From an uncultured Isosphaeraceae bacterium (lineage in GTDB: Bacteria; Planctomycetota; Planctomycetia; Isosphaerales; Isosphaeraceae): a stretch of DNA of 64,000 bases. Shown here piece after piece: positions 13,495 to 15,080 of the stretch. Location of the stretch: positions 310,001 to 374,000 of the forward strand of contig CAMFLR010000005.1 in assembly GCA_945957605.1 (NCBI GenBank). Direction: 5' to 3'. The stretch's first letter is position 1, and each line of letters opens with the position of its first letter. The position numbers were made by a program, and so were the translations under genes. The notes under the pieces were generated by a model, which did not search any database, was not told the origin of the DNA, and saw only the letters and a list, made by a program, of their open reading frames with translations.

Positions 13495-13632
13495 TGGAAT
13501 TCAGGCTGGTGAGCCTTTTCTGGGTGCCACAAGTGGTACTCCACCAGTGTGTTGGACGTCACTCAGGGCACACTGGTGTGGTACCACCAGTGGCACCCGT
13601 CGGTCTGATTTCGACCACCACCCCGAATTCCA
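13495..13632. repeat. MITE-like palindromic repeat, copy 2 (138 bp)
   Basis: Terminal inverted repeats begin TGGAATTC and end GAATTCCA, with similarity running about 15 bp inward. The core is a hairpin with 30-nt arms (13522-13551 and 13569-13598) matching at about 27 of 30 positions, with a 17-nt loop. It is nearly the same sequence as 3466-3623 and in the same orientation. It sits in the upstream region of the peroxiredoxin gene and downstream of the SDR gene. No protein is encoded. Mobility by a transposase elsewhere in the genome is inferred from the structure only. Confidence 0.8.
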
Positions 13633-14608: not shown

Positions 14609-14637
14609 TGGACGCGGGCGACGTCGCTGGATAAAAT
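14609..14637 (+). promoter_or_regulatory. Sigma70-type promoter of the tRNA-Lys gene
   Basis: TGGACG (14609-14614), 17-base spacer, then TAAAAT (14632-14637). The tRNA begins 12 bases further on, as expected for a tRNA promoter. Confidence 0.5.
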
Positions 14638-14648
14638 TGAGGCTCAAC

Positions 14649-15012
14649 GACCGGGTAGCTCAGTCGGTAGAGCAACGGACTTCAGATTGTCGAGGAGCCT
14701 CGCGCGGGAATAATCCAAACCGCACGAGTGAATGCCGCAGTTTGCTGGAACCCCCTGAGAGCCCCTGCACCACAACGTCGCCGGTAACGGCAAGCGTGAC
14801 GGTTTGAAAAGCGAGGGGATTGGGCGATCAGCAGGCAAGGGACCGGAGGATCTTCGGCCCCAGCCTCAGAGACTAGACGCGGCACACCTGAAATGGTGGT
14901 GGTATAGTCCAGACTTCAACACCTGACGCGTTATAAATGTGTCAAGGTGGCCGGTGAAAGCCGGTGAGGTAAGTTAATCCGTTGGTCCTGGGTTCGAGTC
15001 CCAGCCCGGTCA
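14649..15012 (+). tRNA. tRNA-Lys(UUU), interrupted by a group I intron
   Basis: The exons are 14649-14682 (34 nt) and 14974-15012 (39 nt). Joined they give a 73-nt cloverleaf: acceptor GACCGGG/CCCGGTC (7 perfect pairs), D arm GCTC...GAGC, anticodon stem ACGGA/TCCGT with loop CTTTTAA, five-base variable loop, T arm CTGGG TTCGAGT CCCAG. G1-C72, discriminator A73 and anticodon UUU fit lysine. CCA is not encoded and must be added. The exons alone would not fold, so removal of the intron is required. Joining one base differently would read GUU (Asn), but A73 and G1-C72 argue for Lys. Confidence 0.92.
14683..14973 (+). ncRNA. Group I self-splicing intron (291 nt) in the tRNA-Lys anticodon
   Basis: It is inserted after U34, the site used by the cyanobacterial tRNA-Leu(UAA) intron. 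Visible elements: P1 pairs exon CTT (14680-14682) with GAG (14692-14694) placing a U-G pair at the 5' splice site; P3 TGCCGC (14733-14738)/GCGGCA (14879-14884); P4 TGCTG (14743-14747)/CAGCA (14829-14833); P5 CCCC/GGGG; P7 GACTA (14871-14875)/TAGTC (14905-14909) inside the hallmark 'TCAGAGACTA' and 'TATAGTCC'; P8 CACC/GGTG (14885-14898); P9-type hairpin CCGGT-GAAA-GCCGG (14951-14964). The last base is G. There is no endonuclease gene inside. Its small size and site suggest subgroup IC3. Confidence 0.93.
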
Positions 15013-15030
15013 CTTAGTCGAAAAAAACAG

Positions 15031-15080
15031 CGATGCCGGCGATGGGAGGCAACTTCCCATCGCCGGCATCGTTGTTTGTT
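15031..15080 (+). terminator. Strong intrinsic terminator after tRNA-Lys
   Basis: A perfect 17-bp stem, CGATGCCGGCGATGGGA (15031-15047) against 15055-15071, is followed by TTGTTTGTTT. It lies 18 bases after the tRNA. An A-run on the 5' side could make it act in both directions. Confidence 0.85.

Follow-up and report, generated by a model that had tools for sequence, protein, structure and literature searches.

The window, which is the whole 64,000-nucleotide stretch of DNA from an uncultured Isosphaeraceae bacterium that was analysed, carries on its forward strand a gene for tRNA-Lys(UUU) at positions 14649-15012. The gene is interrupted, and 291 nt between its exons (14683-14973) form the intron. 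When 14649-14682 and 14974-15012 are joined, ARAGORN recognizes a tRNA-Lys(ttt) with the loop CTTTTAA; the intron is inserted after U34 and splits the anticodon. The parts of the gene and of its intron are as follows.

14609-14637, + strand: possible promoter (TGGACG, 17 nt, TAAAAT), 12 nt upstream of the tRNA gene; a weak candidate, seen as a consensus match (9/12 in the scan)
14649-14682, + strand: 5' exon of tRNA-Lys(UUU), last base U34 (ARAGORN on spliced exons; intronless orthologues G016-G019)
14680-14682, + strand: exon side of P1, CUU (C32-U34), with U34 in a U-G wobble at the 5' splice site (fold of 14676-14700)
14683-14973, + strand: group I intron, 291 nt, last base G (intronless orthologues; covariation)
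14695-14697, + strand: internal guide of P1, GAG, inside GGAGCC (fold; guide conservation)
14699-14728, + strand: P2 hairpin (fold, z -3.4)
14733-14738, + strand: 5' strand of P3, pairing with 14879-14884 (two-sided change in three pairs)
14743-14748, + strand: 5' strand of P4, pairing with 14828-14833 (100% paired; compensation in the wider set)
14752-14825, + strand: P5 and its extension P5a-P5d, with a GUAA tetraloop at 14784-14787 (structure alignment)
14834-14865, + strand: P6 and P6a (two-sided change in six pairs)
14871-14875, + strand: 5' strand of P7, pairing with 14905-14909; by homology the guanosine-binding helix (A-U to C-G covariation)
14879-14884, + strand: 3' strand of P3 (structure alignment)
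14885-14898, + strand: P8 (G-C to A-U covariation)
14905-14909, + strand: 3' strand of P7 (structure alignment)
14920-14949, + strand: P9 extension hairpin, which differs from genus to genus (z -5.1 in the fold of 14915-14973)
14950-14965, + strand: P9 hairpin with a GAAA tetraloop, of the GNRA type (fold)
14973, + strand: terminal G (omega-G); the final base is G in 102/102 introns, 66 of whose loci were found with a search pattern that required it and the remaining ones without it
14974-15012, + strand: 3' exon of tRNA-Lys(UUU), first base U35, no encoded CCA (ARAGORN; intronless orthologues)
15028-15074, + strand: strong intrinsic terminator of the tRNA transcript (20-pair stem, then a T-rich tail)

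Four genomes of genus g12 (G016-G019) hold an intronless exon pair (query 1-34 followed by 326-365, 100% identity), and ARAGORN confirms the tRNA in these orthologues. Because the same exons are directly joined there, the intron boundaries at 14683 and 14973 are fixed by nature and not by prediction. The earlier note had placed a split tRNA-Lys(UUU) at 14649-15012 with the insertion after U34; the spliced exons and the intronless orthologues show that both the coordinates and the insertion point were correct. In the unspliced window, default ARAGORN and Rfam at gathering cut-offs called a tRNA-Gly alone. With introns allowed, ARAGORN found the tRNA, misplaced the intron and called the gene Leu(cag), or Asn(gtt) in many relatives; Lys-intron genes are miscalled since the program picks its own junction. 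A direct splice test was used in place of this mode, and in it the spliced exons gave tRNA-Lys(ttt) at 102 of the 107 Lys-intron loci. No ORF of at least 80 aa, such as the homing endonuclease ORF of a mobile intron, is contained in the intron. Elsewhere in the window, a near-perfect 79-bp inverted repeat (13521-13599) lies downstream of a bcp-like peroxiredoxin gene and is either a terminator or a repeat element.

Structure of the intron

The group I structure, with its P3/P7 pseudoknot, was assigned by hand and scored on the aligned cores of 30 orthologues. Across these 30 relatives, 96.8% of the cells in P3, P4, P5, P6, P7, and P8 are standard pairs, against 90.3% in shuffled and at most 45% in slid controls. 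Two-sided change is seen in 19 pairs (a mean of 11.4 after shuffling, and none of 500 shuffles reached 19), and compensatory changes occur in P3, P5a, P6a, P7, and P8. P4 is invariant within the family and varies with compensation in a wider set of 56 introns from several hosts and phyla. In this wider set, whose alignment was fitted to the structure (model R1), two-sided change affects 42 of 54 pairs and 95.4% are paired, while slid controls reach at most 41%. P1 is short, with three exon pairs and two more past a bulged A in the fold. In that fold U34 pairs with G14695, which is the U-G pair of a group I P1. Of 102 tRNA-Lys introns, 98 have GGAG among their first 110 nt (46% when shuffled).

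By sequence comparison, 14683-14973 is confirmed as a group I intron whose catalytic core, including the P3/P7 pseudoknot, is supported by covariation. The P3, P4, P5, P7, and P8 pairings that the earlier note had named are thus borne out over 30 orthologues, and P1 and P9 are backed by folds. An archaeal-type intron cut out by protein endonucleases, or a group II intron, would have nothing in its favour beyond the location in an anticodon loop. The probability of either is close to nil: the element is 291 nt long, its P3-P9 core, P7, terminal G, and exon-guide P1 covary as in group I introns, and the insertion lies at 34/35, not at the canonical 37/38.

The Rfam model RF00028 (Intron_gpI), proposed in the earlier note as a check, gave no match to the window intron even at E<=1 and so none at its gathering cut-off of 50 bits. 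Related introns in the same tRNA-Lys score 33-47 bits, below this cut-off; for this reason, the missing match is read as blindness of the model and not as a refutation. First-pass microRNA matches in the window were rejected as terminator-like hairpins.

Distribution and descent in the Isosphaeraceae

A DNA similarity search recovered the full-length intron in 36 of the 45 family genomes, with 70-85% identity, and the covariance model of the intron core gave matches in 36 of 45 genomes of the order. Named members that carry it, found in a scan of named genomes, are Singulisphaera acidiphila DSM 18658, Singulisphaera sp. GP187, Paludisphaera soli, and Tautonia sociabilis. One genome of genus g18 (G034, 93% complete) has no tRNA-Lys(UUU) with or without an intron, and its genus-mates carry the intron; either the gene is missing from the assembly or the intron has diverged.

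The intron follows the history of its hosts. Genus g18, which is basal in the RpoB tree, and almost every other genus are carriers, and the intronless g12 is nested among them with a support of 100/98. This position deep inside the carriers points to one precise intron loss in g12. The distances between introns correlate with those between RpoB sequences (Spearman 0.78; 0 of 5000 permutations as high), and in the intron tree every genus with at least two members forms a single group. Judged from these trees, the intron was present in the common ancestor of the family, has been vertically inherited since, and was lost precisely once. As a side observation, rpoB in this GC-rich DNA has an open antisense strand as well.

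Introns at the same site in other bacteria and in phages

Outside the family, the core covariance model matched 16 more genomes of the class. Six of them (L162-L167), from Gemmataceae and a second, Planctomycetaceae-type family, contain tRNA-Lys introns at the same site. The rest are in tRNA(CAU), tRNA-fMet, tRNA-Leu(UAA), or 23S rRNA, besides one weak partial match (G384, E 0.002). Four further planctomycete matches outside the class sit in Arg, fMet, and 23S genes, and none in Lys. The scan of named genomes, with a pattern made of the 3' end of the intron and the exon, also revealed tRNA-Lys introns in Thermoleophilia (Solirubrobacterales, Svornostia abyssi), Microbacterium, Phytoactinopolyspora limicola, and Mycobacterium sp. 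IS-3022. The introns of some MAGs labelled Alphaproteobacteria (L186), Bifidobacterium (L221), or Candidatus Kuenenia (L240, L241, L246, L250) resemble those of planctomycetes or Thermoleophilia, and these labels are therefore probably wrong.

Other group I introns were noticed in the course of these searches. The genome of the window holds a second one in a tRNA (L262, G000:C7:54752-55028; 289 nt, 63.7 bits with Rfam), inserted between positions 36 and 37 of an anticodon-CAU tRNA that is probably Ile2. Planctomycete genes for tRNA(CAU), fMet, Leu(UAA), and Arg are interrupted at L174, L175, L176, L177, L258, L260, and L261, and the intron of L260, of about 650 nt, holds a likely reading frame. 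In several planctomycete families, 23S rRNA is the host (L168-L173, L259).

Phages carry such introns as well. In Gordonia phage Daredevil (L307, NC_048021.1 40653-43170), an unannotated tRNA-Lys(UUU) with a group I intron adjoins the integrase, and this tRNA is possibly the phage attachment site. An uncultured phage contig of 38.7 kb (L264) has a tRNA-Lys intron, and the 3' exon there borders on an ORF for a DUF559 nuclease. In a phage contig of 179 kb (L263), the 5' half of the intron is degenerate and a DUF559 ORF lies close by. These DUF559-family nucleases could act in trans as homing nucleases. The tRNA-Leu(UAA) gene of a very large uncultured phage (L308, LR756501.1; 735 kb) is interrupted by a group I intron. 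According to a 2014 review, every phage intron known by then sat in a protein gene (PMC3984707). A phage-like plasmid of Staphylococcus epidermidis (L306, NZ_CP121510.1 4928-8026) shows 75% identity to part of the intron core; the matching stretch, which may be a group I intron, is flanked by genes for a hypothetical protein and a glucosaminidase and is not in a tRNA.

Core trees were built from 53-56 cores, using the alignment fitted with model R1 and two MAFFT alignments, with and without the longest branches; they contain no cyanobacterial sequences, and long branches remain. Two lineages separate at 100/100 in the model-fitted alignment and at 100/99 and 100/100 in the others. The first contains 23S introns together with the planctomycete and Thermoleophilia Lys introns. 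The second joins the Lys introns of Microbacterium and a phage with fMet, Leu, Ile/Met, and one Arg intron. The hypothesis that all Lys introns arose once is rejected (p-AU 0.023, 0.0017, 0.0097), and that of one clade of planctomycete and Thermoleophilia Lys introns is not (p 0.69). As introns of the same site fall into two lineages, the tRNA-Lys site was invaded at least twice.

The same trees bear on the origin suggested in the earlier note, by which the intron would derive from the cyanobacterial tRNA-Leu(UAA) intron through reverse splicing into a CUU|UUAA-like site. Position 34/35 and the CUU exon target are indeed the same, and planctomycetes have tRNA-Leu(UAA) introns at that site (L177). 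Nevertheless, such a derivation is not supported, and we consider it very unlikely. With 100% support, the core tree, built without cyanobacterial rows, sets the window intron apart from the introns of Leu(UAA), fMet, Ile, and Microbacterium tRNA-Lys. Leu(UAA), fMet, and Ile/Met(CAU) introns and one Arg intron form a lineage separate from the planctomycete/Thermoleophilia Lys introns, the planctomycete Leu(UAA) intron examined being one of them, and within the family the introns track RpoB, as expected of vertical descent. The spliced exons form tRNA-Lys(ttt) and not the tRNA-Leu(UAA) that hosts the cyanobacterial type.

Comparison with known introns shows both likeness and difference. The cyanobacterial tRNA-Leu(UAA) intron (1997, cited in PMC4033280) also follows U34 of a CUU exon, has no ORF, is vertically kept, and presumably has a similar J6/7-P7 signature, as in Anabaena, but the window intron is located in another tRNA and in other phyla and has a larger P5 extension with a GNRA loop. 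The Azoarcus tRNA-Ile(CAU) and tRNA-fMet introns (PMC3984707, PMC8450103) are likewise bacterial group I introns of tRNA anticodon loops, but in a different tRNA and phylogenetic lineage. The deep split of the core tree leaves planctomycete 23S rRNA introns (L168-L173) together with the Lys intron; unlike the window intron they interrupt rRNA, and three of the five scored pass the Rfam cut-off. The Lys introns of Microbacterium, Phytoactinopolyspora, a Mycobacterium, and phages share the tRNA, the phosphodiester, and the CUU target, yet they belong to the other intron lineage.

Reviews place bacterial tRNA introns in cyanobacteria and in alpha- and beta-proteobacteria (PMC4033280; PMC3984707), and the work on tRNAscan-SE 2.0 lists 36 genomes in which group I introns interrupt fMet or Ile2 genes; detecting these lies outside the design of the program (PMC8450103). 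None of the open-access papers searched described a group I intron of tRNA-Lys or of a planctomycete or actinobacterial tRNA; the earlier note, to which no tRNA-Lys or planctomycete case was known, agrees with this. The chemistry and the anticodon loops of tRNAs as a host class are already known. The tRNA, the phyla, the unusually deep conservation, and the convergence are new.

Splicing and the decoding of AAA

The AAA codon is in use around the gene, as eleven ORFs near tRNA-Lys contain 53 AAA and 112 AAG codons. The window's genome has a further tRNA-Lys(UUU), together with one tRNA-Lys(CUU), in an array of 25 tRNAs that also includes a gene for an HNH nuclease. This further tRNA-Lys(UUU) is atypical and divergent, with TCCGA instead of TTCGA in its T loop, and some AAA decoding might come from it. 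Arrays of up to 25 divergent tRNAs were recorded at L031 (G000:C2:264000-269500), L071-L077, and L087; similar arrays, with a second set of tRNA-Lys(UUU) and (CUU), occur in many family genomes and are absent from many relatives.

It could be argued from the array copy that the intron broke a dispensable tRNA-Lys and left a pseudogene, with AAA read by another tRNA. The earlier note had made a second intact tRNA-Lys(UUU) the test of this, and the outcome is divided: a second copy is present in the window's genome, in the atypical form just described, and is absent from a relative that is 100% complete. In this relative (G031), all 52 intact tRNAs found with Rfam were typed; they include one Lys(CUU) and no intact Lys(UUU), so the interrupted gene is its sole tRNA-Lys(UUU) and is not considered a pseudogene. 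The exons are kept intact, the ribozyme core covaries across the family, and the array copy, with its deviating T loop, belongs to arrays that are missing from many relatives. The pseudogene reading is therefore highly improbable.

An exact pattern for intact tRNA-Lys(UUU), which may overlook odd copies and misses the divergent array copy in the window's genome, found none in G005, G010, G011, G025, G030, and G038-G041 (family members, at least 97% complete). With the same pattern, none was found in Paludisphaera soli, Tautonia sociabilis, and Singulisphaera GP187, or in Microbacterium azadirachtae, Svornostia abyssi, the Phytoactinopolyspora, and the Mycobacterium. As the pattern can miss odd copies, the fully typed G031 is the firm sole-copy case. 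A single pattern match in S. acidiphila (L090) is not a tRNA according to ARAGORN.

The best explanation overall, which we regard as almost certain, is a group I intron that mediates guanosine-initiated self-splicing of tRNA-Lys(UUU), ancestral in the family and vertically inherited. Transcription, catalysis, and the order of the steps we infer by applying established group I chemistry to this anatomy, which would give splicing in two steps, started by GTP, at U34 and at the terminal G. The precursor tRNA would fold so that the exon CUU (C32-U34) pairs with the intron guide GAG, which places the U-G wobble at the 5' splice site. A free guanosine held in P7 would attack after U34, and the freed U34 would then attack after the terminal G of the intron. 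The exons would be joined to form the loop CUUUUAA, and the intron would be released in linear form. As the anticodon is split by the intron, no tRNA-Lys that reads AAA would come from this gene without splicing.

Standard tools overlook the intron, and carrier genomes consequently seem to be without tRNA-Lys(UUU). Two intron lineages at one phosphodiester represent a natural experiment on group I site choice, and genus g12 offers a precise natural intron loss for comparison. A wider proposal, put forward tentatively and with somewhat more doubt than conviction, is that group I introns land repeatedly at the U34/U35 bond of tRNA-Lys(UUU), a site reached independently by at least two lineages in Planctomycetota and Actinomycetota, with intron-bearing phages (Daredevil; the uncultured DUF559 phage) as vehicles. 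In carriers with no other UUU copy, AAA decoding would then depend on an active ribozyme and might be sensitive to GTP or Mg2+. Where the intron interrupts the only tRNA for AAA, as is firmly the case in G031, the ribozyme is likely to be essential.
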